A stretch of 37,970 bases of DNA from positions 1-37,970 of the forward strand of contig JACPPM010000282.1 in NCBI GenBank assembly GCA_016191015.1, given 5' to 3'. Shown one piece after another: positions 4,069-27,805 of the stretch. The position numbers and the translations under genes were made by a program. This DNA comes from Acidobacteriota bacterium (GTDB taxonomy: Bacteria > Acidobacteriota > CAIWXX01). Numbering within the stretch: position 1 is the first letter of the stretch; the number at the start of each line of letters is the position of its first letter. A model generated the notes under the pieces. That model saw nothing but the letters and a program-made list of their open reading frames with translations, was not told the origin of the DNA and did no database searches.

Positions 4069-5619
4069 ATGAAGATTCTGCTCTACTGCCCCGACAACGG
4101 CGTGACCCGCAACTACATGCCTCACCTCTGGATGTTTCTCCTCCAGGCACTGACACCGGAGGGACACGAAACCGTGCTCATCGACGGCAACGCCCGCGCC
4201 ATGGACGAACGGGAGCTCGTGCGGTTTGTGAAGGAGGAGAAAATCGGACTTGTCGGCATCGGCGCGATGACGCGCATGATCGCAAAGGCTTACAGGATGG
4301 CCGATGCCGTGCGGAGTGTCGGCGTTCCCGTCGTGATGGGGGGCCCGCACGTGACGGAAATGCCGGACGAGGCGCTCGGGCGCAATGGCGGACCGCGTCA
4401 CGCTGACGCCGTGGCGGTCGGCGAAGCCGACTACACCTGGCCGCTGATTGTGGAGGACGCGGCCAGAGGTGCTCTCCAAGAGATGTATGCCCCACTCGAT
4501 TCGGCCGGCAAAGAGGTCAAGCCATCCCTCCAGCCGTATCCCGAGATCCCGTGGGAATCGTTGGATCTCCGCCAATTCAACCTTGTGCCGAAGTTCGCGC
4601 GCTCCACGCTCGGATCCCTCGGCAAGGGCTGGGGGACGCTCCGCGTGATCCCGATCGAGACGGGGCGCGGGTGTCCGTACGGCTGCGAGTTCTGTACGGT
4701 GACGGGCTTTTTCGGCGATTCGATCCGGTTCCGCACCAACGAAAGCGTCGTCAACGAGCTGTTGCGGCTCAAGGAGCGAGCGCGGCGCGAGAGCGGACAG
4801 ATGGCGGTTTTCTTCATCGACGACAACTTCGCGATCAACGTCAAGCGCACGAAATCGCTGCTGCGCGACATCATCGCGGCGAACGCCCAGGTCTTCTGGG
4901 TCGCACAGATCAGCGCCAATCTCCTGCGCGACGAGGAGCTCGTGGATCTCATCGCCGCCGCGGGGGGCACGTGGATCTTCATTGGAATGGAGTCGATCGA
5001 TTCCGCTAACCTCGCCGATGTGAACAAGAGCTTCCTCAAGCCCGCGGAGTTTGGAGCGGTGCTGGAACGCCTTGCCCGGCGCAACGTCTATGCGATCACG
5101 TCGTTCATTTTCGGACTGGACAATGACGAGCGTGGAGTTGCCGAGCGGACGCTCCAACAGATCCGGAAGTGGCCGCCGGTCCTTCCAGTCTTCGGCCAGC
5201 TCACGCCATACCCCTCCACTCCCCTCTATGCCCGGCTCCAGGAAGCTGGTCGCCTCACCCGTCCCACTCACTGGATGGATTTTGCCCCGTTTCACATGGC
5301 GCATAGCCCCATGAAGATGACAAGCGAAGATGTCAGGGAGGAGATCCGGCGCGCGTGGACCGCCTCCTACAGTGCCCAAGAGACCTATCGGGCACTCGAC
5401 TCGATCAGTGACCGATCAGTGTTGTACAGCATCAGCCACTTCATCGCCCGCCTCTTTTTCCGCGGGATCTACTTCCGCCAGATGAGCCGCTGGGCCTGGG
5501 TGAAGTTGCTGTTTCAGAATCGAAGGACGATCATGATGCTGGCGGCCCGGTCGATCAGGGCCAGACGTGCCGCGCGCCGCCGGGCCAGGATCGCAGCCGA
5601 GTCGGTTGCCGCCGGCTGA
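4069..5619 (+). CDS. B12-binding-domain radical SAM protein
   Basis: About 516 residues from the ATG at 4069, chosen because MKILLYCPDNG starts the domain directly; an in-frame ATG at 4045 only adds an unlikely leader. Residues 1-130 form a cobalamin-binding-like Rossmann domain, with IGLVGIGAMT and VPVVMGGPHVTEMPDEAL. The usual DxHxxG cobalamin histidine motif is not evident. Radical SAM cysteines are C202, C206 and C209 (GRGCPYGCEFCT), within an ETGRGCPYGCEFC core. DNFAINVKRTKSLL and GMESIDSANLADVNKS are typical of the family barrel. The C-terminal 100 residues include a hydrophobic, aromatic and basic stretch (ARLFFRGIYF...) that may touch the membrane. The family contains methylases and lipid-modifying enzymes such as the hopanoid methylase HpnP; the substrate here is unknown. 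It converges with the sulfatase gene, leaving only 17 bases between stops. Confidence 0.88.
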   Translation: MKILLYCPDNGVTRNYMPHLWMFLLQALTPEGHETVLIDGNARAMDERELVRFVKEEKIGLVGIGAMTRMIAKAYRMADAVRSVGVPVVMGGPHVTEMPDEALGRNGGPRHADAVAVGEADYTWPLIVEDAARGALQEMYAPLDSAGKEVKPSLQPYPEIPWESLDLRQFNLVPKFARSTLGSLGKGWGTLRVIPIETGRGCPYGCEFCTVTGFFGDSIRFRTNESVVNELLRLKERARRESGQMAVFFIDDNFAINVKRTKSLLRDIIAANAQVFWVAQISANLLRDEELVDLIAAAGGTWIFIGMESIDSANLADVNKSFLKPAEFGAVLERLARRNVYAITSFIFGLDNDERGVAERTLQQIRKWPPVLPVFGQLTPYPSTPLYARLQEAGRLTRPTHWMDFAPFHMAHSPMKMTSEDVREEIRRAWTASYSAQETYRALDSISDRSVLYSISHFIARLFFRGIYFRQMSRWAWVKLLFQNRRTIMMLAARSIRARRAARRRARIAAESVAAG

Positions 5620-5636
5620 GGTCGCTCGACACGGAA

Positions 5637-7721
5637 TCAGACCCCCTGCCCACCATCGGGCGGGCTTTCCTGATTCTTGTCCTTGCGGTGGTGCCGGTTC
5701 TTCTCTCCGGCCTGAGTGTCCCCTTCGGCACCATCCTTCTTCTGCTTCGCAGGCTTGGCCTGCGGCTTGTCCTGCGGCTTGTCCTCCCTGGGCGGTTTCT
5801 TGTCGCCCGCGGGCGCCGGCTTCTTCTCAGGCGCCGCGACCGTCGTGCCGCCGTCGCCTCCGCTCGGCGTGGCGTAGCCCAACTCGACAAGTGCCGACTC
5901 TTCCTCGGCCGTGGCTGTGATCTGCTGAGCCTGGGCGAGGCCGGCCAGTTTCTTCTGCTCTTGCGCCCAGATGAGGTGCTGCTGGTGCATGTAGCCTACG
6001 CGTAGGGCAGCGTCGTCGGCGATGTTCAAGTTCTCCGCCGGGTCCTTGTTGATATCGTAGATCTCCCGTTCACCACGGATTCCGTGGATGTAGTGGAATC
6101 CATCTTCACGGACACCATACTGCGGCATCTCACCGGCGGTGCGACCGAAATGCGGCGCGGCTGGCAGGCTTTCACCCGCTGTCGCAGCCGCCAACAAGCT
6201 CCGCCCCTGGAAAGCTCCGGCAGGCGGCGATAAGCCCGCCGCGGCCAGGATGGTGGGCGCCACGTCGATGATCCCGACCACAGCGTCGATCTGAGGCTGT
6301 TTCCTGGGGAGCTGTGTCGGGAGGCGCATGATGAGAGGCACCTTGGCGAATTCGCGATAGAGTCGCGAATTGTGTCCGAATAGACGATGTTCGCCCATCG
6401 CCTCACCGTGATCGCCGAGTAGCACGACCATAGTCTTGTCCAGAAGACCCTGGGAGCGCATCCATGCGAGCAGGCGGCCAACCTGGGCATCAGCATAGTT
6501 GAGGTTCTCGTCGTACCGGCTGGCCATGTACTCGCGGTCCGACGCGCCCAGATCCAACTTCCCCGAATTCACCAGGTCGAAAATCTCTTCGGTCATCCGG
6601 CTCCCCTTGAGAGGGCCGCTGTACGAGCTAGAGAACCTGCCGAGGTATGGCTCGGGCGGGATATGGGGTGCGTGCGGCTCTCGGAGGTGAGCATAGAGGA
6701 AGAACTGATTCTCGCGGTGTTCACCCATCCAGGAAATCGACTCATCCACCACCTCGTTCGCGTCGACGAGGCGCTTGGAGCTCTCCGACCGCTTGTAGAG
6801 CTCGCGCACCGTTCCGAAGCCCCGGTCATAGCCGTAGAGCGATGAAGCATTCGGAGACGCTGTGATCAGCGCGGTTTCCCAACCGGCCTCCTGCAATGAT
6901 TGCGTCACGGTCCTCGCGGACGTCCCCAGACCGAAGCCCTTGAGGACCGAGCCGTGGCGGTCCGGATACTGCGATGTCAGGAGAGATCCCACCGAGGCCT
7001 GGGTGTAGACCGCTTCGGCGTAGGCGTTCCGGAAGAGGACACCTTCTGAGGCGAGGCGATCGATGTCAGGGGTGACTTCCTTCCCGTAGCCGTAGCATCC
7101 GAAGTGACTCGCTCCGGCTGCATCGAGCAAGACGACGAGGAAGTTGACATCATTCCGCCGTGTCGGGACCGGGGCCGGGTTCGGCTGCTGCGGCAACCGA
7201 GTGGACGCCTGCACGCCCCCGCTCCGCTTCTCGATTCGCGGGTTCAGCCACACGCCCACTCCGGGTTTTCCGTCGTTGGTTCGAACGCCCAGAGTGAGAC
7301 GCAGGATGCCGGAGGTTTCCGGAAGCTGCACCTGGACTCTCTTGCCGATGCCGATCTTCCTGAGGACTCTCCGAAACCGGCTATCCTCGAAGATCCTGAC
7401 GGGAGGGTGGCCTTCTTTTGTTTGGACAGATACCGAGTAGAGGGCGGCTCCGTTGCCGGACTGGTCGGGGGCGGCCGCCGCCCCGATCCCGAACGTCAGG
7501 CGGCAGCCGGACTCGTTCTTGAGGTAGTAAGAAATGGAGGTGTCGGGGCGCTGAACTATGCTGACCAGGCCCCCAGAATCTTTCGCCTCCGCCATCGCCT
7601 CCGGTGGTCCCTGGAACTCCGCTACCCCCAGGTTCGCGCCCAGGTCCAGCACCACCGTCCCCTCATCCCGTCCGCCACACGATGCGGACGCCAATAGAAG
7701 GAGAATCAAATACCTTCGCAT
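5637..7721 (-). CDS. Lipoprotein sulfatase / alkaline-phosphatase-superfamily enzyme with Thr at the nucleophile position
   Basis: 694 residues. The N-terminus MRRYLILLLLASASC is a lipoprotein signal with Cys15. Residues 16-185 form an uncharacterised N-terminal domain. The sulfatase domain starts near residue 190 (NFLVVLLDAAGASHFGCYGYG, with metal ligand D200) and includes VVLLGDHGEAMGEHRLFGH and FAKVPLIMRLP. At the CxPSR signature the text is T240-Q-A-S-V before GSLLTSQYP, so the formylglycine Cys/Ser is replaced by Thr. That favours a direct Thr nucleophile, as in phosphotransferases and phosphodiesterases of the superfamily, over classical sulfatase chemistry. The last 75 or so residues are a Lys/Pro/Asp-rich, probably disordered tail. 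The gene diverges from the kinase-like gene, and a good but near-leaderless promoter precedes it. The substrate is unknown. Confidence 0.85.
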   Translation of the reverse strand: MRRYLILLLLASASCGGRDEGTVVLDLGANLGVAEFQGPPEAMAEAKDSGGLVSIVQRPDTSISYYLKNESGCRLTFGIGAAAAPDQSGNGAALYSVSVQTKEGHPPVRIFEDSRFRRVLRKIGIGKRVQVQLPETSGILRLTLGVRTNDGKPGVGVWLNPRIEKRSGGVQASTRLPQQPNPAPVPTRRNDVNFLVVLLDAAGASHFGCYGYGKEVTPDIDRLASEGVLFRNAYAEAVYTQASVGSLLTSQYPDRHGSVLKGFGLGTSARTVTQSLQEAGWETALITASPNASSLYGYDRGFGTVRELYKRSESSKRLVDANEVVDESISWMGEHRENQFFLYAHLREPHAPHIPPEPYLGRFSSSYSGPLKGSRMTEEIFDLVNSGKLDLGASDREYMASRYDENLNYADAQVGRLLAWMRSQGLLDKTMVVLLGDHGEAMGEHRLFGHNSRLYREFAKVPLIMRLPTQLPRKQPQIDAVVGIIDVAPTILAAAGLSPPAGAFQGRSLLAAATAGESLPAAPHFGRTAGEMPQYGVREDGFHYIHGIRGEREIYDINKDPAENLNIADDAALRVGYMHQQHLIWAQEQKKLAGLAQAQQITATAEEESALVELGYATPSGGDGGTTVAAPEKKPAPAGDKKPPREDKPQDKPQAKPAKQKKDGAEGDTQAGEKNRHHRKDKNQESPPDGGQGV

Positions 7722-7824: not shown

Positions 7825-10062
7825 ATGGAGAAGCCTGCTGGCCAGAGGATCGGACGTTACCAGATCGTAGAGAAGATCGGACACGGCCCCATGGGGTCTG
7901 TTTACAAGGCCTACGACCCCATGATCAAGAGGCATCTCGCGATCAAGACCATTCAGGTCGATGCCGCCCCCGACAGCCAGGAATACAGGGACTTCCTTGA
8001 GCGGTTTTACGAGGAGGCGCGCACCGCCGGTAACCTGACGCATCCCAACATCATCACGATCTACGATGTCGGCGAAGACGAGGGGATGCCGTATCTCGTT
8101 TTCGAGCATGTGGAAGGTGAGCTTCTGGCCGAGCTGCTCGCAAGCGGCGCCCACTTCGGCCCGGAGGGGATCATCCTGATTGTCGGTCAGGTCGCTGCGG
8201 CCCTGGACTACGCTCATTCCAATACCGCGCTCCACAAGAACCTGAACCCCGGTAACATCCTCGTCTACCACAAGAACAGGCTCAAGGTCATCGATTTCGG
8301 TATCACCACGCTGGGAGACGCTGATTCGAGTCTCGGGGGCGAGGCCCTCAAGTGGGTTGGATACTTGGCGCCCGAGCGTGCGCGGCCTGATGTCACCCTG
8401 GACCATCGGAGCGACATATACTCCCTCGCGGCCATTGCCTACGGGCTGTTTACCGGGAGCGTGCCGTTCAACGCGTCGTCCGCCAAACAGGTCCTGGACG
8501 GCAACAACGTGGCGAGCGAGTCCGTGCTCCTTCAGGTGCTGGGGTCGCAGGGGTTTCGTGTTGATGCATGGCGTTCGGTATTCCAAACGGCTCTGAGCCC
8601 GGATCCCCACAAGCGGTTCGAGAAGGCCGAGGATTTCGTGCAGGCACTCTGGGATGCCCAGAGCAACGTGTCGGAGTCATTGGAGAATTTCATGCAGGCG
8701 GGGATCGAGACGGGCCGGCCCGCATACACCATGTCAGAGGACCGTGCGGTCACCCTCGCGGCGCCGGCTGTGACAGCATCGTCCCCGTCGCCGCCCCCGC
8801 CAGTTCCGGAGCCTTCATCGTCCGTGGCGACGGTCGTGCTTCCTCCGAGATCAGCCGTGCCCGGCAAAGGCGGCGTGAAAGCGGCAGAGGAACCGTCACC
8901 CGACGCGAGCTTCGTGCCCGAGCAGACGACAGTGCTTCCACCTCGCCCCACGCCCGCGTCCACCGCCCAGCCGACGCGGGAGGCGCCCTCGCCAGAACCG
9001 GAGCCCGCTGCGCCGCCCCGACAGGGACCGGCGCCGACGATTCCCGCTGCGCAGACAACCACGCTTCGGTCCGCGCCGCGCGCAAAAAGCTCCATGTCCG
9101 GCTCGCGCGCCTTTACAATCCTGATCGTCCTCGTCCTTCTGCTCGGAATCACCGCTGGCGCCTATTATCTCTTCACCCGCCCGACACCCGAAGAGGCCGT
9201 CCCGCAACCCGTGCCGCAACCTCCGCCGCCGCCGCCGCCAGCCACTCAGACCCAGGCCGATGCGACGCCTCCGGTTGCCATCGGAAGCCTCGAGCTCCAC
9301 ACGACGCCAGAGGGGGCCACGGTTTATGTGAACGGCGAAGCCGCAGGCCAAACACCGGTCACCAGGAGCGAATTGAAGGTGGGCCTGTATACGTTGAGAT
9401 TCGAGCTCAAGGGCTATGAGACCGTCGAGCAGGCGCAGGAGGTGCTGGCGGGTGTGAGTAGCCCGCAGGTCGTCCAGGTTCCAATGAAGCCGGCCACTCA
9501 GGTGGAATCGACCGGGTCGCTGAAGGTCACATCTACCCCGCCGGGTGCCACAATCATGCTGGATGGGAAGGCGAGTGGAGTCACTCCGAAAACAATCACC
9601 AAACTGCGAGCCGGGAAACATGTGCTCGAGGTGAGCCTGGAAGGACATGTCAAGTGGGCAGGCACCCCGGTCGTCAAGCCAGGCAGGACTCTCGATATCG
9701 CCGCCGAGATGCAACCGGTGCGGACCCAACCTGTGAAACCGCCACCTCCCCCTCCTCCACCCGTCGAGACGGGCCCGTTCGCGCTCGGCCCCGGCATCAG
9801 TTTCGACCGTAGACCGGTCACGGGTGAACAGCCGACTCTGCCGAAGTCTGCGAAGGGCGTGAATGTGTCGGTGCTCGTGAAGATCATTGTCGAGGAATCG
9901 GGGTCTGTCGGCGATATCCGGATTCAGGAGAGCGGCGGGGAGGCGCTGGACCGTATCGTGGTCGAGACGGTCAGAAAGTGGCGCTTCAATCCGGCCATCC
10001 GCGGCGGGAAGGCTGTGAGTGTGTATTTCCTCTACCGTTTCACGTTTAAATCTGCAAAATAG
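7825..10062 (+). CDS. Ser/Thr kinase-like (probable pseudokinase) - transmembrane - double PEGA - TonB C-terminal protein
   Basis: 745 residues. Residues 11-280 form a Hanks-type kinase domain: Gly loop G19-H-G-P-M-G24, ATP lysine K41 (AIK), helix-C E64, DFG at 157-159 and APE at 182-184. The catalytic loop is H137-K-N-L-N-P-G-N144 instead of HRDLKPxN, so the catalytic Asp is Asn139 and the loop Lys is Asn. That predicts weak or absent phosphotransfer. A Pro-rich linker follows, then one membrane helix at about 428-449. Two PEGA domains follow at about 487-555 and 563-620 (TTPEGATVYVNG, STPPGATIMLDG), then a Pro run and a TonB C-terminal domain at about 675-745 (VRKWRFNPAI). The order places the kinase fold inside and the PEGA/TonB part outside the cytoplasm. 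The ATG at 7825 lacks a clear ribosome-binding site. lepB follows 8 bases after the stop. Confidence 0.9.
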   Translation: MEKPAGQRIGRYQIVEKIGHGPMGSVYKAYDPMIKRHLAIKTIQVDAAPDSQEYRDFLERFYEEARTAGNLTHPNIITIYDVGEDEGMPYLVFEHVEGELLAELLASGAHFGPEGIILIVGQVAAALDYAHSNTALHKNLNPGNILVYHKNRLKVIDFGITTLGDADSSLGGEALKWVGYLAPERARPDVTLDHRSDIYSLAAIAYGLFTGSVPFNASSAKQVLDGNNVASESVLLQVLGSQGFRVDAWRSVFQTALSPDPHKRFEKAEDFVQALWDAQSNVSESLENFMQAGIETGRPAYTMSEDRAVTLAAPAVTASSPSPPPPVPEPSSSVATVVLPPRSAVPGKGGVKAAEEPSPDASFVPEQTTVLPPRPTPASTAQPTREAPSPEPEPAAPPRQGPAPTIPAAQTTTLRSAPRAKSSMSGSRAFTILIVLVLLLGITAGAYYLFTRPTPEEAVPQPVPQPPPPPPPATQTQADATPPVAIGSLELHTTPEGATVYVNGEAAGQTPVTRSELKVGLYTLRFELKGYETVEQAQEVLAGVSSPQVVQVPMKPATQVESTGSLKVTSTPPGATIMLDGKASGVTPKTITKLRAGKHVLEVSLEGHVKWAGTPVVKPGRTLDIAAEMQPVRTQPVKPPPPPPPPVETGPFALGPGISFDRRPVTGEQPTLPKSAKGVNVSVLVKIIVEESGSVGDIRIQESGGEALDRIVVETVRKWRFNPAIRGGKAVSVYFLYRFTFKSAK

Positions 10063-10070
10063 GTGGAGTG

Positions 10071-10673
10071 ATGGAGGAGAAGCCCGAGGAGGCGGAGCCG
10101 GTTGAGGGGGTTGCCGGCGAAGATGCCGCCGCTCGGCCTTCGACCGCGAGGTGGGTGCGCGTTCGGCATGAAGCCGCGGTGCTCGCGAAAGATATCGGCA
10201 TCGCCGGAGGGATCTGCGTCCTTGTTTTGCTGTACATCGTCCAGCCTTTCACGGTCGAAGGGACGTCCATGCTTCCGACCCTCGAGAACGGGCAGCGAAT
10301 CATCGTGAATAAGTTCCTGTACAGGGTGCGTGAGATCAGGCGGGGAGACATCGTCGTCTTCTATTATCCCCTTGACCCCAGCAAGTCATTCATCAAGCGC
10401 GTCATCGGGCTGCCGGGCGACACGATCGAGATCAGTGACGGCTTCGTCTATGTGAACGGCGAGAAGTTGCAGGAGCCTTACATCCTCCGCAAATACCGCG
10501 AACACGAGGAGGTCCCGCCAGCGAGAGTACAGCTGGGGCACTACTGGGTCATGGGTGATCACCGCAACGGATCCAATGACAGTCGCGCAGGGTGGCAGGT
10601 GCCGTCGAGATACATTTACGGCAAGGCGTTTCTCAGGTACTGGCCGCTCGTCGACATGGGCAAGCTGAACTAG
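10071..10673 (+). CDS. lepB: Signal peptidase I
   Basis: Type I signal peptidase (S26), which removes signal peptides from exported proteins at the outer face of the inner membrane. It is 200 residues from the ATG at 10071, which GGTGGAG precedes; an in-frame GTG three bases upstream is less likely. There is one membrane helix at about 42-59, followed by the nucleophile motif GTSMLPTL (Ser66). Box D is FIKRVIGLPGD, with general-base Lys109. Later boxes are WVMGDHRNGSNDSR and GKAFLRYWPL. The N-terminal 30 residues are acidic and Pro/Glu rich. It follows the kinase-like gene by 8 bases, so the two are probably co-transcribed. Confidence 0.96.
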   Translation: MEEKPEEAEPVEGVAGEDAAARPSTARWVRVRHEAAVLAKDIGIAGGICVLVLLYIVQPFTVEGTSMLPTLENGQRIIVNKFLYRVREIRRGDIVVFYYPLDPSKSFIKRVIGLPGDTIEISDGFVYVNGEKLQEPYILRKYREHEEVPPARVQLGHYWVMGDHRNGSNDSRAGWQVPSRYIYGKAFLRYWPLVDMGKLN

Positions 10674-10931: not shown

Positions 10932-12494
10932 TCAAGGCTCGACCTGCTCCGGTGACCTTATCAGCTCCCACACCTGCACCATCGGCCCTCCGAACGGCGA
11001 GGGCGCCCAAGACATCTGCGGGTCCGAGTACACTAAGCGGAAGAAGCGGAACGGAGCACCCCGCGCCCCCCTCTCCGGCCGGGCTCGCCCCTTGTCATAG
11101 TAGGCCCGCCACCAAAAGGACACCTGCATCAGCCTAGTGATAACGAATGAACCGCCCGCTTCCCCGGACGGCCGGAGATAGTGAGAGGAGGGAACGCCGA
11201 AACAATTCGCCGACCCTGGCAGACGAAGAAACGGGTTGTCCACAACAACGAATCTGATTCCGTTACGCCTGCAATAGTCGGCGAAAGCTTCTTCGCGGAC
11301 GAGAAATGGGGCGGATTGCGCACCTTCGAAAACCCCCAATCCGCCCATCGTACCAAATCCGTCGACGATCACCGGCGAGGCCGAGGTAAAACTGAGAAGG
11401 TGACCCCAATCCCAGGGAGCCAGGATTCGCCCATGACGCCCACCGTCGATCTCCCTGAGCCGATAAGCGGCCCTGAGCATCGCTCCCGCCCCTCGCGTCA
11501 ACACAGGGGACGGATTCTTCAACAGGCGCCCGCACTCGTAAAGGCTCGGCCCAACTGCCAGCAACGCCGCGGCGAGGGCCAGCCGCCTTCTCCCCCCATC
11601 CAACCATCCCGCAACGCATACACCGGCAACGACTGCTAGCGGACCAGCCAACGGGATCACGAATCGCTTGGTGGACAGCGCGGCGAAACAATAGGCCAGG
11701 GCAAACACGGCGACAACCTGGCCGTCCTTGTCTCGCCGCTTCGTGGCGAGGACGAAGAGCGGCCCCACGAGGAATACGGCTCCGCCCACCACACGGAAGT
11801 CCTCCCAGGCGTTCGCCTCCGGGTCAAAGAAGAGAGGACGAAATTCTACAATTGTAGAAAACCATGGATCTCCGCCAAGAAACCCACTGCCGGATGAAAA
11901 AGCTTCGAGGGCACCGGGGACGGCCGCTGCGGCCGCCGATCCCCCGGCCACGGAGAGGAGGATCGCGAGGCCGCGCGCGGGCCCGCGCGCGGGCCCGCGC
12001 GATTCGCCCCGCCGGGAGACCCAGGCCATCAGCGCGCAGGTAACAGCGCCACCAAGCAGAGCGGCGAAGTGGGGATAGCCGAGGTGCCACTGATCATCCG
12101 GGTAGAGTGGTGGCCTGGTGAGCCGATACGCCATCACCGCGGCCGCAGGCATTGCGAAAGCCGCGCTAGCGGCCGCGTGGAGGCGCGCGACGCCGTCTCC
12201 TGCGAGGAGGATAGCCAGGATCGCGACCGCAGCGGCGAGAATCAAGGCCACCTGCACGAAGACGCATGCCAGCAGGGCGGTGGCCACGAGCGCAGCCGAG
12301 CCCAGGAGCGCGCGCGATGAGCCAGCACGCACGAGCAGCACGACGCTGCCCATCAGGCCGAGGAGGAGCGCAGGCTCCAGGAAATGATGATCGATCGAGC
12401 CGATTTGTGAGGCGTTCACCAGCGATGGAGAAAAGGCGATGAACGTCCCAGCGACCATCCCGGCGGTCCGTCCCATCCAACGGGACATGACCAC
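10932..12494 (-). CDS. STT3-type oligosaccharyltransferase, C-terminal fragment after an in-frame stop
   Basis: 520 residues from a GTG at 12494. The open frame really continues upstream to a TGA at 12521-12519, beyond which lies the N-terminal part of the same gene in the same frame. STT3/PglB/AglB enzymes transfer glycan from a polyprenyl carrier to Asn. Features seen are IGSIDHHFLEPA (family DHH motif, at about 32-42), many membrane helices, and A-P-W-D-W-G-H followed by SPVIVDGFG, the counterpart of the WWDYG acceptor-binding motif. A 12-base tandem repeat at 11969-12001 encodes RGPARGPARG. Apart from the TGA the frame is intact, so the break is recent, an assembly error, or read through. 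The nearest minus-strand neighbour downstream is the possible 37-residue ORF. Confidence 0.7.
   Translation of the reverse strand: MVMSRWMGRTAGMVAGTFIAFSPSLVNASQIGSIDHHFLEPALLLGLMGSVVLLVRAGSSRALLGSAALVATALLACVFVQVALILAAAVAILAILLAGDGVARLHAAASAAFAMPAAAVMAYRLTRPPLYPDDQWHLGYPHFAALLGGAVTCALMAWVSRRGESRGPARGPARGLAILLSVAGGSAAAAAVPGALEAFSSGSGFLGGDPWFSTIVEFRPLFFDPEANAWEDFRVVGGAVFLVGPLFVLATKRRDKDGQVVAVFALAYCFAALSTKRFVIPLAGPLAVVAGVCVAGWLDGGRRRLALAAALLAVGPSLYECGRLLKNPSPVLTRGAGAMLRAAYRLREIDGGRHGRILAPWDWGHLLSFTSASPVIVDGFGTMGGLGVFEGAQSAPFLVREEAFADYCRRNGIRFVVVDNPFLRLPGSANCFGVPSSHYLRPSGEAGGSFVITRLMQVSFWWRAYYDKGRARPERGARGAPFRFFRLVYSDPQMSWAPSPFGGPMVQVWELIRSPEQVEP
11969..12001. repeat. GC-only 12-base tandem repeat inside the STT3 gene
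   Basis: A 33-base run of only G and C, built from about two and a half copies of a 12-base unit based on GCGCGCGGGCCC. In the STT3 frame each unit adds R-G-P-A. The array is in frame and strongly self-complementary. Confidence 0.7.
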
Positions 12495-12518
12495 GGCGAC
12501 GATGGCCGCGAGGAGCGA

Positions 12519-12854
12519 TCAGACGAGCGGGGGGAACCACACAGCGCGATTCAGGACCGAGCCGGCAGATCGGCCTCCCAGCATGCGCGCGGCGCCTCCG
12601 GCGGCCAGGTCATAGAGCGGCGGCCATGGACAGTATGAGCCGGCGGGACCACGATCAGGATCGAATTCCAGGATAGATGGGAAACGTGATGCGGAATGGA
12701 TGATCCGCTTCGCGTGATAGAGCTCATCGAATGGCCGGATCTGAGCGACCCCGCCTTGAAATGCACTCCCGAGGTTATTGACCCTGCACAACCCGGCGAC
12801 CAGGAAGAACGCTGCGCCGACGAGCAGCGACGTCCTGCATCGCCGGTCCTTCAT
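12519..12854 (-). CDS. STT3-type oligosaccharyltransferase, N-terminal fragment ending at an in-frame TGA
   Basis: 111 residues from ATG 12854, with AAGGA six bases upstream. A membrane helix at about 9-22 is followed by the first external loop containing F-D-E-L-Y-H (Asp43), which matches the catalytic Asp motif of STT3 (DxxYH). Then come FDPDRGPAG, CPWPPLYD and VWFPPLV, all in the expected STT3 order. The stop TGA (12521-12519) falls where the family continues WFPP(L/V)(L/V)G..AA, and the same frame resumes with SLLAAIVAVVMSRW. One substitution, for example GGA to TGA, would explain the split. Together the halves give about 640 residues, a normal bacterial STT3-like size. Confidence 0.7.
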   Translation of the reverse strand: MKDRRCRTSLLVGAAFFLVAGLCRVNNLGSAFQGGVAQIRPFDELYHAKRIIHSASRFPSILEFDPDRGPAGSYCPWPPLYDLAAGGAARMLGGRSAGSVLNRAVWFPPLV

Positions 12855-12933
12855 CCTCTATCCTTCAGATCTCATCCTCTGTCCCGTCGGTCGCGCCGTA
12901 CGTCCCGAACCCCCCGCCGGCTGGTGTCCCTTC

Positions 12934-22490: not shown

Positions 22491-22964
22491 ATGGCGAAAA
22501 GGCTCAGCAAAGGATTCACACTGGTAGAGCTCCTGATCGTCGTTGCGATCATCGGAATCATTGCGGCGATCGCGATTCCGAACCTGATCACCGCCATACA
22601 GCGCGGGAAGCAGAAGAGGACCGTTGGCGACATGCGTAACATCGGGACTGCGATGGAAGAGTACATCGTGGACGAGGCGAGCTGCATTGCGAACACAGGC
22701 ACGGTCAACACGGCTCTGAACGTACCAATCTTCATACCGTTCTACATCAAGGTCATCCCGACGTTGGACGGTTGGAGGAGTAACCTCCAGTACAATCAGA
22801 ACGGTGCCTTCACGACCACCTTTAACTATTCGCTGTACAGCTTCGGCCGCGAAAAGGCGGCGGATGGCGCCCTGACGTTCGGTTTGGAATACGACAACAA
22901 GTCGTTCAACTACGACATCTATTTCTCTGACGGGCAGTTCACATACAGTCCGCAGCAGAAGTAG
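22491..22964 (+). CDS. Type IV pilin / GspG-like pseudopilin
   Basis: 157 residues. The class III signal is MAKRLSKG/FTLVELL: a short basic leader, cleavage after Gly8, Phe1 and Glu5 of the mature protein, then the hydrophobic spine IVVAIIGIIAAIAIPNL. After the helix come DMRNIGTAMEEY and a C-terminal part with DGWRSNLQYN, YSLYSFGREKAADG, YDIYFSDGQFTYSP. That order (DGW...Y...S.GR...DI.FS.G.F) matches major pseudopilins such as GspG, so it could act in type II secretion or a pilus. No gsp or pil machinery genes are adjacent; it is a single-gene unit with its own sigma-54 promoter, strong ribosome-binding site and hairpin terminator. A prepilin peptidase and assembly ATPase must be encoded elsewhere. 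Confidence 0.9.
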   Translation: MAKRLSKGFTLVELLIVVAIIGIIAAIAIPNLITAIQRGKQKRTVGDMRNIGTAMEEYIVDEASCIANTGTVNTALNVPIFIPFYIKVIPTLDGWRSNLQYNQNGAFTTTFNYSLYSFGREKAADGALTFGLEYDNKSFNYDIYFSDGQFTYSPQQK

Positions 22965-23004: not shown

Positions 23005-23160
23005 TCCCTTCTCTCCCTCCCAGATTGCCCCCGGACAGATCCGAGAACTCCCGGCGCTCGCTTGGGCGTTTCCTTCGGCTGTCCGCCGGGTCACACTGAC
23101 GCCCGACATGAATCAAGTTTCATCAATGCGAACGTCGTATCGCGCTCCGGCAACGTGCCT

Positions 23161-25341
23161 ATGATGCCTTCCGGCGCAGTCGAGCAGGGGAGTCAGCCAC
23201 GAATCCGGTTGCAGCTCTTCCTTGTCGGGGCGTTCTTGCTGTACGTCGAGCTCCTTCTGATCCGGTGGATATCGACCGAGATCCGTGTCTTTGCGTATTT
23301 CAAGAACCTCACCCTGATCGGGTGTTTTCTGGGGATGGGAATCGGATGCATGCTCGTCGGACGCATCCGGCTCAGGTTTGCGTGGTCATATCCTCTGCTC
23401 CTCCTGTTCGTCGCAGCAGTCGTTCTCCCGAATGAGTTAGGACTCTCCGTGAACCAGGTAGTCAGCCAATTCCTCGGGGAGATGATTGACATGCCGCTCT
23501 GGGTCTGGGCAGCCCGAAGCGGCGGGACGGCGTCGAAGGTCGGCGCCCTTGCCGCGCTCATCTTCTTCTTCCTTCTGATCACGATGGTTTTCGTCCCTGG
23601 GGGCCACGGCCTCGCTGTGTGCATGGGCCGGAGTGTGAGCAAGATAAGCGGCTATTCAGCTAACGTCGCGGGTAGTCTCGTGGGAATCTGGTGTTTCTCC
23701 GCGACATCGTATCTCTCACTACCGCCGGCATGCTGGGTTGCAGTCGCCGCGGTGCTCGGGCTACCATTGCTCCGTGGGCGTCGCGACTGGGCCGTGGCGG
23801 TTGGATGCACGGCCGGAATGATCGGACTCTTTTACATCCGGGGAGCCGGGCCTGGCTCTACTGTCTGGTCACCGTATCAGAAGCTTAGCTATCAGCCGGC
23901 TGTAGTCTCGGACTCGAGCGGACGTTCGATCCAGACGGGTTACACGCTGCAAGTCAACGAGACTTTCTACCAAAGGATTGCTAATCTGGACCCGCGGTTT
24001 CTGAGTGCACATCCCGACCTCTTCCCCGAGTACGTCGACCAGGACCATATCGGATACAACCTGGTTTACCGCATTCGGGAGAGTGCAGAGGAGGTCCTTG
24101 TCGTGGGGGCCGGAACGGGCAATGACGTGGCCGCGGCCCTGCGGAACGGGGCGAGACATGTCGATGCAGTGGAAATCGATCCGCGCATCGTCGACATAGG
24201 CAGGGGGATCCATCCCGAGCGCCCCTACGACGATCCCAGAGTGACTGTCTATGTCGACGACGCGCGGTCATATTTCAAGAAGTGCGGTCGAAAGTATGAC
24301 CTGATCGTCATGGGGGCTCTCGACTCCCACACACTCAACTCGGCGCTTTCTAACCTGCGCATCGACAACTTCGTTTACACAGTCGAGGCTTTTCGGGAGG
24401 TCCGCACATTGTTGAGGCCCGATGGCCTCCTCTGGCTCGTTTTCGCATTCGAGCAGCCATTTATCGGGGAACGGTTGTATTTGATGCTCCAGGACGCATT
24501 TGGTGTACAACCGGTGGCGTTCATCAACCGCGAGGTGGGTCTCCTGAGCTCCGCCGGCGGGGGGGCAACCTTTGTGATCGACCGCGAAGGGCGAATCGAG
24601 GAGCGGATAGCTGCGCGACCGCGGGTCCGGCAGATCGTGGAAGAGACGCGAATGAAGCCACAGTCCGCCGTCAACTTGGCGTCCGACGACTGGCCATACC
24701 TCTACATCCGGTCGCCGGCGGTGCCTCGTCTCTACTTGGTGGTCATGGGCGCGATCGTCCTCGTTGCCGCCGCACTGACCCGGCCATTCATCCAGGCCTT
24801 TCACCGCATCTCCCCTCACTTCTTCCTGCTCGGCGCCGCCTTCCTCCTTCTCGAGGTTCAGAGTATCAGCCGCATGGCGCTCCTGCTCGGGAACACGTGG
24901 ATCGTCAACGCGCTGGTGATCTCGGCGATCTTGATCATGATCCTCCTCGCAAACGCCTCGGCCTGCCTCGTAAGCCCGCGTGCTCTCCCTCTGGTTTACG
25001 TGGCCCTTTTCGTGAGCATTCTCATCAGCTACGCGTTTCCGCTGGAGTCCCTTCTCTCGCTGAACGGCACCTCCAAGAGCGCGGCAGCGAGCGTGGTGAT
25101 TGGCATGCCCATCTTCTTCGCCGGCATCATCTTCATCCGTACCTTCGCCACAACTGTCGATGCCGGCATTGCTCTGGGCTCCAACTTGCTCGGTGCCATC
25201 ATTGGAGGGGCATGTGAGTCCGCGTCGTTCGTCGCCGGCTTGAATGCTCTGGCATTACTGGCCCTCGTCTTCTACGTCGCATCGTTCCTGTGTCTGTTCC
25301 TCAGTGGCGAGATGCGACTGATGCACGGACGGTCATCGTGA
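23161..25341 (+). CDS. Multi-pass membrane protein with an internal spermidine-synthase-like domain
   Basis: About 726 residues from the ATG at 23161 (or 23164). An upstream TTG frame exists but has no domain text, and no ribosome-binding site decides the start. Seven or so membrane helices fill residues about 15-240 (LFLVGAFLLYVELLLIRWISTEIRVFAYFKN). A Rossmann methyltransferase/spermidine-synthase-like domain follows at about 310-450: VLVVGAGTGNDVAAALRNGA, VDAVEIDPRIVDIG, DDPRVTVYVDDARSY, YDLIVMGALDSHTL. A second helical block of about seven helices closes the protein. Canonical spermidine synthase acidic residues after the GxGxG strand are partly present, but the polyamine-binding DxxDP is replaced by GALDSH, so activity is open. 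It converges on the second such gene with 58 bases between stops. Confidence 0.78.
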   Translation: MMPSGAVEQGSQPRIRLQLFLVGAFLLYVELLLIRWISTEIRVFAYFKNLTLIGCFLGMGIGCMLVGRIRLRFAWSYPLLLLFVAAVVLPNELGLSVNQVVSQFLGEMIDMPLWVWAARSGGTASKVGALAALIFFFLLITMVFVPGGHGLAVCMGRSVSKISGYSANVAGSLVGIWCFSATSYLSLPPACWVAVAAVLGLPLLRGRRDWAVAVGCTAGMIGLFYIRGAGPGSTVWSPYQKLSYQPAVVSDSSGRSIQTGYTLQVNETFYQRIANLDPRFLSAHPDLFPEYVDQDHIGYNLVYRIRESAEEVLVVGAGTGNDVAAALRNGARHVDAVEIDPRIVDIGRGIHPERPYDDPRVTVYVDDARSYFKKCGRKYDLIVMGALDSHTLNSALSNLRIDNFVYTVEAFREVRTLLRPDGLLWLVFAFEQPFIGERLYLMLQDAFGVQPVAFINREVGLLSSAGGGATFVIDREGRIEERIAARPRVRQIVEETRMKPQSAVNLASDDWPYLYIRSPAVPRLYLVVMGAIVLVAAALTRPFIQAFHRISPHFFLLGAAFLLLEVQSISRMALLLGNTWIVNALVISAILIMILLANASACLVSPRALPLVYVALFVSILISYAFPLESLLSLNGTSKSAAASVVIGMPIFFAGIIFIRTFATTVDAGIALGSNLLGAIIGGACESASFVAGLNALALLALVFYVASFLCLFLSGEMRLMHGRSS

Positions 25342-25399: not shown

Positions 25400-27805
25400 T
25401 TACGGGTGCTGATTCGTCCCACCCTGCTGCCGCAAGATTGTGGCCTGGCGCTGCAAGACATCCCCGACCGCCCGGTAGTTCTCTGTGAGGGTCCGCTCGA
25501 GCTCCTCCATTCCTGCCAACCCGGATGTGTCGAGGGAGCTCCAGACAGGCTCCCGTACTTTGAGCAGGAACTGGAAATTATCTCGCCATGTGTCGCGCCC
25601 GGTCAAGCGGCCCGATTCGTACTCGACCAGGGGAAGGTCGTCAGTGTGAGCGGGGACTGATTTGAGGAGGGACGCCAGCTTGCCACCTCCGGCTACGAAG
25701 TAACCCAAGATCGAGACCGGGTCCGCGTGCCCCCGCTCCCTGAGGTGCGCGGCTACCTGAGTCTCTTGGACCTCACGCACGAGGTCCGCCAGCCGGACCG
25801 GAGGGCCCCCTGAGTTCCTCCCGACGACAACCGTGAAGGGGTTCAGGGTCGTGTGGACATACCAGACCGTGGTCTCCGGAAACACATCCACGAACGCCTT
25901 CAGGATCATCTGGAAGTTGTCGGGGGTCAGCGTGTAGAGCGGCAGCCACTGCGACACAACACCACCCGGCGCGAGCCGGGAACGGCACAATTGGTAGTAT
26001 TCACGGGTGTACAAGCTCCCATTGCCGCAGTACCTCGGGTGGATCGAGTCGGACAGGATGACATCGAATTGATCGCGCGTGCGCAACAGGAAGTTGCGGC
26101 CGTCGCCGTACCAGATCGAAAGCCTGGGATCGCTGAGCACTCCGCGATTCACATCCGGGAAATGCTTGCCCGACAGCTCGATGACCGCCGGGCTGATCTC
26201 GGCCACCTGAACCGTCTTGACGCGGTGCGTCGAAACAGCGTAGGCAGTGCCTCCGCTCCCGAAGCCGATGTGGAGGACGCGCTCGGCGCGGGCCTTGAGC
26301 AGGAGCGGCAGGTGTCCCTGCATCGCCTGGATGTCGAGGAGGTCCGCGGAGGTCCCCGCGACATTGACCCCGTTGACGCTGATCGACCGCCACGAGGGCG
26401 GGACCATGATCTCTTCGACGGACACGGTCGAGGTCAGGTCCTCAGCGAAATCGATGAGCCTCCGATCACTGCTTTCGCGAAAAAGGTCGCTCCGCATCAG
26501 GATACTCGGTTGCCGCGCCAGGAGGAAACCGGCCACAAGAGCGACGCCAGCGACGGCGTTGAGGAGCTTGCGCCCGGGGCATCGCCGGGCGAGGAGGAGT
26601 GCGGCCACAACGTTGACGGCAGCGGCAGCGCACATCGTTCGATGGACCCCCACGGCCGGAATCAGCGCAAAACTCGCAGCCAGCGAACCGGCCACTCCGC
26701 CGGCGGTGTTCGCGAGATAGAGATGGCCCGCATGGGATTGCTCGGTGCCCGCCTTTGTCGAACAGGCCCGCAGCAGGAGCGGAAAGGAAACCCCCATGAT
26801 GACAGTGGGGATAATCACGAACTGAGTCGCATTCAGGAATAGTGCGACGCTCTGCGCGGCGAATGGCCCGAGGGAGGAGAAAAACGCCTCCATGGCACCG
26901 GTCCGCATGCCGAATCCCTCCAGCAGCCAGTACTGGGAGAAAACCGAGAAGGCCAGGGCGACCTCCAGGAAGGCAAGCACCACCGGAAGCGACCCGCGGA
27001 TGCGATCGGACACGTAGCCCCCGATGATGCTTCCCATGGCCACACCCATCAGAAAGGTCACGAGAAGCAGACTGTAGGCGTAGACCGAGCTCCCGATCTC
27101 GAGCACGAGAATGCGGGTCCAGATGACCTCGAGTGCCAGTGAGGAGAAGCCGCAGAGCGCGTACGCGATGAGGATGGATCTCTCGGGACGGCGGTCTATC
27201 GCGGCCGCGACCTCGATCGGGCCCGGGGTCTCGCGCACAAACCATGCCGCGAGGCACACGAAGAGGTTTCCGGCCACCGCGATCTGAACAGTCGCGTGCA
27301 ACCCCAGAAGAGGGATGAAAAGAAACCCCGCCCCAAGCGCCCCTGCCAGCCCTCCGGCGGTGTTCATCCCGTACACCATCCCGCTTACGATCCCTCGCCG
27401 TTCGAAGTCAGCCCGGGCACGCAACAACAGCGGCAGACTGGCGCCCATCATGATCGTTGGCGGCAGGATGAGGATGGCCAGCAATGACGTCTGCACAACC
27501 GCGTCCACGACGGCAATGCCCGCGATCCCGGCGTAGGCTTGACGGACCCAATCCAGAGCCACGGTCGCGATCAGGCCCCAGACTCCAATTGCTCCCTCGA
27601 GCAATCCGTACATCCGCACCGGTCGCATGAGCAGCATTCTTCCAAACGCAAGCGCTCCGATCGCGAGGCCGCCCATGAACAGGGCCAATATCATGCCGGT
27701 GGCATAGGTCGTGTTGCCGTAGATGAGCGACAGCGACCGCATCCAAACGATCTCGTAGATGAGGCTGGAGAAGCCGGAGATGGTTACGAGCAGATAGAGA
27801 AACAT
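25400..27805 (-). CDS. Fused MFS-like membrane / spermidine-synthase-like protein
   Basis: 801 residues from ATG 27805 with only a weak ribosome-binding site. Residues 1-450 contain two blocks of six or so helices with a repeated pattern (IYEIVWMRSLSLIYGNTTYATGMILALFMGGLAIGALAFGR and a second LALEVIWTRILVLEIGSSVYAYSLLLVTFLMGVAMGS), a clear internal duplication. A soluble spermidine-synthase-like domain lies at about 475-740: VLHIGFGSGGTAYAVST, VAEISPAVIELSGKHFP, DPRLSIWYGDGRNFL, FDVILSDSIHPRYCGNGSLYTREYY, APGGVVSQWLPLY. The family is widespread in bacteria and often called 'fused spermidine synthase/transporter'; biochemical function is not established. It is convergent with, and clearly related in design to, the gene ending at 25341, though helix blocks and domain order differ. 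Confidence 0.85.
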   Translation of the reverse strand: MFLYLLVTISGFSSLIYEIVWMRSLSLIYGNTTYATGMILALFMGGLAIGALAFGRMLLMRPVRMYGLLEGAIGVWGLIATVALDWVRQAYAGIAGIAVVDAVVQTSLLAILILPPTIMMGASLPLLLRARADFERRGIVSGMVYGMNTAGGLAGALGAGFLFIPLLGLHATVQIAVAGNLFVCLAAWFVRETPGPIEVAAAIDRRPERSILIAYALCGFSSLALEVIWTRILVLEIGSSVYAYSLLLVTFLMGVAMGSIIGGYVSDRIRGSLPVVLAFLEVALAFSVFSQYWLLEGFGMRTGAMEAFFSSLGPFAAQSVALFLNATQFVIIPTVIMGVSFPLLLRACSTKAGTEQSHAGHLYLANTAGGVAGSLAASFALIPAVGVHRTMCAAAAVNVVAALLLARRCPGRKLLNAVAGVALVAGFLLARQPSILMRSDLFRESSDRRLIDFAEDLTSTVSVEEIMVPPSWRSISVNGVNVAGTSADLLDIQAMQGHLPLLLKARAERVLHIGFGSGGTAYAVSTHRVKTVQVAEISPAVIELSGKHFPDVNRGVLSDPRLSIWYGDGRNFLLRTRDQFDVILSDSIHPRYCGNGSLYTREYYQLCRSRLAPGGVVSQWLPLYTLTPDNFQMILKAFVDVFPETTVWYVHTTLNPFTVVVGRNSGGPPVRLADLVREVQETQVAAHLRERGHADPVSILGYFVAGGGKLASLLKSVPAHTDDLPLVEYESGRLTGRDTWRDNFQFLLKVREPVWSSLDTSGLAGMEELERTLTENYRAVGDVLQRQATILRQQGGTNQHP

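Follow-up and report, generated by a model that had tools for sequence, protein, structure and literature searches.

Introduction

Bacterial genomes in general often contain interrupted genes, and those split by a nonsense mutation show one stop in an otherwise open frame that relatives read through. Bacterial selenoproteins present a second setting for an in-frame TGA, one in which a hairpin lies downstream and the genome encodes selenocysteine (Sec) machinery. According to the available text of one survey (PMC1794560), every selenoprotein-containing bacterium had FdhA or SelD. The available portion of another study (PMC1088965) required two or more Cys homologues and more than 50% TGA/Cys pairs before retaining a selenoprotein candidate, and regarded a lone TGA sequence as potentially a sequencing error. 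With regard to the gene product considered here, the closest described proteins are the oligosaccharyltransferases (OSTs) of the STT3/AglB/PglB kind. Their DXD-type, TIXE and WWDYG motifs and the metal-ligand role of the first DXD-type Asp are taken from the available text of an AglB structure paper (PMC8342417).

Here, we analysed a window of 37,970 bases, which is the whole of contig C250 in a 6.43 Mb draft genome of 349 contigs, and examined an STT3-like frame in it that carries one in-frame TGA. A literature search found nothing on STT3 in Acidobacteria, nor on stop-interrupted genes in MAGs. We consider a single recent nonsense mutation in a patchily held STT3-like membrane protein gene of this uncultured bacterium to be the best explanation, with a probability of about 0.62.

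An STT3-like frame with one in-frame TGA

The STT3-like frame lies on the minus strand, where codon 112 is TGA (tca on the plus strand), and the only other stop in it is the terminal TGA at codon 641. The frame continues across codon 112 with zero indels, and the motifs quoted in the initial annotation all fall within it (PFDELYH at residue 41, WFPPLV at 106, DHH at 155, PWDWG at 480). Given that homology is present before and after the stop, the claim of that annotation that a lone in-frame TGA splits an STT3 gene is borne out. The features of the locus are as follows.

12855..12871, minus strand: leader region of the upstream ATG, in which AAGGA lies six bases before the start codon
10932..12854, minus strand: complete STT3-like frame of 640 codons and a terminal TGA, matching PF02516
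12519..12854, minus strand: N-terminal fragment of 111 aa that contains the first DXD-type motif (PFDELYH)
12726..12728, minus strand: codon of Asp43 in the first DXD-type motif, a metal ligand in AglB (role from the available text of PMC8342417)
12519..12521, minus strand: in-frame TGA, codon 112, within a hydrophobic segment (residues 105-123)
10932..12494, minus strand: C-terminal open frame, 520 aa, from the first possible restart, a GTG at codon 121
12470..12486, minus strand: downstream hairpin and strongest SECIS-like candidate, which does not stand out clearly from background
12384..12392, minus strand: Asp155-His-His157, second DXD motif (motif from the same text)
11844..11855, minus strand: Thr334-Ile-Val-Glu337, TIXE motif (same source)
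11403..11417, minus strand: PWDWG (residues 480-484), at the WWDYG position (same source)

The five alternative frames of 12854..10932 contain 9 to 20 stops each, and first-order simulations of this stretch (n = 2000) gave 11.5 stops on average, with two or fewer in a share of only 0.0005. Long open runs are by themselves weak evidence in GC-rich DNA, as a mechanical scan of the window found one stop between two long open runs at 10 places, which include the STT3-like site and take in neighbouring genes and antisense frames. The STT3-like site stands out among these places because homology is present on both sides of the TGA and relatives 37-43% identical read through it.

The frame matches PF02516, the Pfam STT3 profile, at 49 bits (cut-off 24.5), and a whole-genome search recovered it at E = 3.4e-12, flagged with one internal TGA, as the single STT3-like copy in the genome. 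Its resemblance to STT3/AglB/PglB OSTs extends to the first DXD-type Asp, the TIXE motif and the WWDYG-like PWDWG, all in the same order, and its second DXD motif is Asp-His-His as in AfAglB; in contrast to these enzymes, the present frame is broken at codon 112. A simple scan gave 10 hydrophobic segments, compared with 13 transmembrane helices in STT3/AglB/PglB OSTs. The profile for archaeosortase-associated OSTs (TIGR04154) aligned over residues 14-419 at 135.7 bits, a likeness well under its cut-off of 450. N-glycosylation as the function is not assured, since the last motif is without its Asp in four of the five close relatives covering it (PWSWG, PWSWG, PWSLG and PWHAG). A phmmer search of the PDB returned no sequence match to the protein at E ≤ 1, and an AlphaFold model built from 2 sequences only had a mean pLDDT of 33.2 and is meaningless. 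We also noticed a GC-only short repeat within the frame (11969-12001), encoding RGPARGPARG, that is absent from the relative L007.

Relatives and the TGA column

The STT3-like gene is patchy, as its nearest relatives sit in other families. In a phylum search, 20 of 395 other genomes had a match to the protein at any identity, and in four of these the identity was 39-42%; a smaller search of related genomes found matches in 4 of 59 others, and the sole other genome of the family has at best a 29% relative. The class-wide search covered two genomes only, the present one included, and the sets searched held no second genome of the same species or genus. The few bacterial STT3-like proteins found to carry AglB-type catalytic motifs have some value as a set.

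The close alignment consists of L007, an Acidobacteria gp7 contig from a metagenome genome, obtained through a genome-contig search, and five of the 26 phylum matches. Eight other matches were aligned as a distant set, reduced to six usable rows by removing L050 and L062 (wrong frame), and 12 were left out. Identities in the close alignment were 42.6% for L007, 40.3% for L045, 38.3% for L046 and 37.3% for L003; L047 (37%) and L061 (41%) are partial sequences broken off at contig ends, where the part-length matches in genome G229 also stop. At the TGA column, the six closest relatives read S, F, F, F, G and G, the six usable distant rows show five G and one L, and no stop occurs in either group. 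The expectation that Gly is usual at this site thus fits five of the six distant rows and only two of the six closest sequences; the original residue is not nameable with confidence, because the column reads S, F, G or L. Among the 26 phylum matches, one is the present gene and 24, many of them partial or distant, have no stop in the matched stretch. The remaining one, L045 (flagged in genome G175), had been listed with a TAG interruption, which we rejected because this TAG is its own terminal stop.

State of the gene

Third-position GC is 0.703 before the TGA and 0.726 after it, with the 22 other frames of the window ranging from 0.680 to 0.814. The codon-usage score is positive only in the STT3-like frame, on both sides of the TGA. 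At 0.095 and 0.074 for the two parts, the scores lie towards the low end of those of the 22 other frames (0.061 to 0.283), which makes coding quality imperfect evidence.

We counted how often each sequence departs from residues that do not vary among the remaining four full-length relatives. The present gene departs at 2 of 26 such residues before the TGA and 11 of 78 after it, exactly as L007 does; the corresponding values are 8/32 and 14/81 for L045, 1/25 and 19/86 for L046, and 6/30 and 19/86 for L003. By this count, invariant residues are retained as well as in the closest relative, L007. The catalytic motifs are also retained despite the TGA, which separates Asp43 from the remaining motifs.

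A probable nonsense mutation and its main rival

If codon 112 acts as a stop, ribosomes starting at the upstream ATG would halt after 111 residues, inside the hydrophobic segment. The resulting N-terminal fragment would have the first catalytic Asp, would lack every other active-site motif and therefore would not be expected to work as an enzyme; judging from the sequences, neither fragment should work. The rest of the gene would not yet have decayed. The evidence in favour of this reading includes the single stop and absence of indels in 640 codons, the motifs and invariant residues kept, the patchy distribution of the gene, and the use of TGA as a stop in this genome. The lone stop, the otherwise open frame and the relatives reading through are features shared with nonsense-interrupted bacterial genes, from which nothing that we tested sets this gene apart; it shows little decay. 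We regard the lesion as probably real in the cells, recent and abolishing function, which would mean that one lineage has lost an STT3-like protein belonging to a bacterial family of patchy distribution. The retained frame and motifs are, however, also expected of a working recoded gene, and in this respect count against a nonsense mutation.

The main rival is that the TGA is a single wrong consensus base, or a minority base from mixed strains, in a gene that is intact and ordinary. We consider this possible and clearly less probable than a nonsense mutation. The same picture would be expected, above all given so little decay, and the gene comes from a draft assembly of 349 contigs with no second genome of its species or genus in the sets searched. 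Arguing against a base error, the window has no N, and the genome holds one other interrupted gene, an ABC-ATPase with a TAG. Our preference for a nonsense mutation follows from this second case and from how often bacterial genes are interrupted, and is a judgement rather than a measurement. Whether nonsense allele or base error, the finding is an ordinary one.

The other interrupted gene came from scoring 150 of 180 ABC-ATPase candidates, which yielded 83 matches, one with an internal stop (TAG, in a truncated gene). At this locus (L076, G000:C136:9000-11000), the ABC-ATPase match begins at profile position 62 and the TAG lies just upstream, making it another broken gene.

Possible readthrough, restart or selenocysteine insertion

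Part of the protein could be made through ordinary leaky readthrough or restart, as a small amount of enzyme or as two halves that cooperate, but this appears improbable. In-frame starts occur soon past the TGA, at codons 121, 123 and 127, and the C-terminal frame stays open for 520 codons. We saw no Shine-Dalgarno-like sequence ahead of these three codons, in contrast to the AAGGA at the upstream ATG, although this argument is weak because only about three of the eight neighbour leaders inspected carry a GGAG-type motif. The break also falls within a hydrophobic segment, and no UCA anticodon was found among the 38 tRNAs called out of 39 matches, the single Trp tRNA having a CCA anticodon. Absence from this tRNA set is weak evidence, since the set is incomplete, with no Ile or Asp tRNA seen.

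Still less probable, and in our view very unlikely, is that UGA at codon 112 is read as Sec in the membrane segment of an STT3-like selenoprotein. Such a reading is worth testing because the genome has SelA (502 bits), SelB (344 bits) and SelD (325 bits), the last of which carries an in-frame TGA in CAG*ASK, which we take to be a known Sec place. In the SelD gene (L095, G000:C63:4087-5007, minus strand), this TGA is followed by a stable hairpin. Taken together, SelD (L095), SelA (L085) and SelB (L041 and L074) point to putative Sec use in this genome, where UGA would accordingly not always be a stop. As a second positive control, we looked for a Sec formate dehydrogenase; none of nine molybdopterin-domain matches had an internal stop, leaving SelD as the only Sec gene seen. 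A tRNA-Sec was not recognised in the incomplete tRNA set of the genome, and no Rfam family reached its gathering score in the window or near selA, selB or selD. One RF01852 match at 47.7 against a gathering score of 47 (150 of 883 candidates scored) was rejected, as ARAGORN called it tRNA-Ser(TGA) and it scores better as an ordinary tRNA.

The STT3 site shares with bacterial selenoproteins, including SelD of this genome, an in-frame TGA, a downstream hairpin and Sec machinery in the genome; it differs from them in having no Cys in its column or close by and a hairpin loop at the outer limit of the SECIS rule. Cys was absent from the TGA column in all six close and all six usable distant relatives, with 12 further matches lying outside the alignment. 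Within 8 columns, the only Cys in the close set belongs to one relative, 4 columns off, and the STT3-like protein itself has none within 8 residues of the TGA. We know of no selenoprotein in the STT3-like glycosyltransferase class, and no redox role in STT3 chemistry is known to us. The site also lies in a hydrophobic segment. On the homologue counts used in the available portion of PMC1088965, the site would not be retained as a selenoprotein candidate. The same portion names GrdA as an accepted selenoprotein that also has no known Cys homologues, so the Cys-column test is not absolute.

Under the SECIS rule that we used, the loop has 3-14 nt, contains a G near its start and lies 16-37 nt from the UGA. 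The hairpin at the STT3 site, with a 6-bp stem and its loop 37 nt downstream of the TGA, falls within this loose rule at the outer limit; SelD passes with the same stem length and its loop at 17 nt. With a stem of at least 6, 29.2% of 8937 ordinary codons also pass, and the rule therefore separates little. The available portion of PMC1088965 describes SECIS as a small apical loop with a guanosine, no more specifically than that. By fold, the 52 bases after the TGA fall within the top 8.3% of 903 background stretches (3.2% for SelD). Compared with shuffles, z was -0.92 for 52 bases, -0.90 for 45 and 0.10 for 71, and the 121 bases around the TGA gave z = -2.24, with 6 of 200 shuffles as good. 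Folding near the TGA is suggestive at most as a point against a nonsense mutation. If the TGA did encode Sec, this residue would lie in a membrane segment of the STT3-like glycosyltransferase and would imply selenium-dependent glycosylation. Where a genome has Sec machinery, a clean in-frame TGA is tempting and calls for caution, as the Cys-column test fails here and the hairpin test does not set the site apart from background. The candidates proposed in the initial annotation (nonsense mutation, base-call error, readthrough) were sound and can now be narrowed, given that neither the Cys column nor the hairpin supports readthrough by Sec.

Genome-wide recoding of TGA, already judged unlikely from the sequence, is rejected, as RF1 and RF2 are both present (prfB 468.5 bits, cut-off 370), 8 of 22 window frames end in TGA, five of these with Pfam matches over cut-off (PGK among them), and no UCA anticodon was called.

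Neighbouring genes and possible acceptors

In L007, the minus strand carries a pilin-like frame (MKKRQSGFTLIELL) with its start at 7403, facing the STT3-like gene (4563-6848, plus strand); the pilin-like product is a possible acceptor candidate. The window has a GspG/pilin-like gene of its own at 22491-22964. Closer to the STT3-like frame, Ser/Thr protein kinase, PEGA and TonB C-terminal domains occur in a single frame at 7825-10062, and a signal peptidase I gene comes next (10068-10673). Two convergent long frames of 759 and 801 residues (23062-25341, plus strand; 25400-27805, minus strand) each have a spermine-synthase-like domain in mid-frame.
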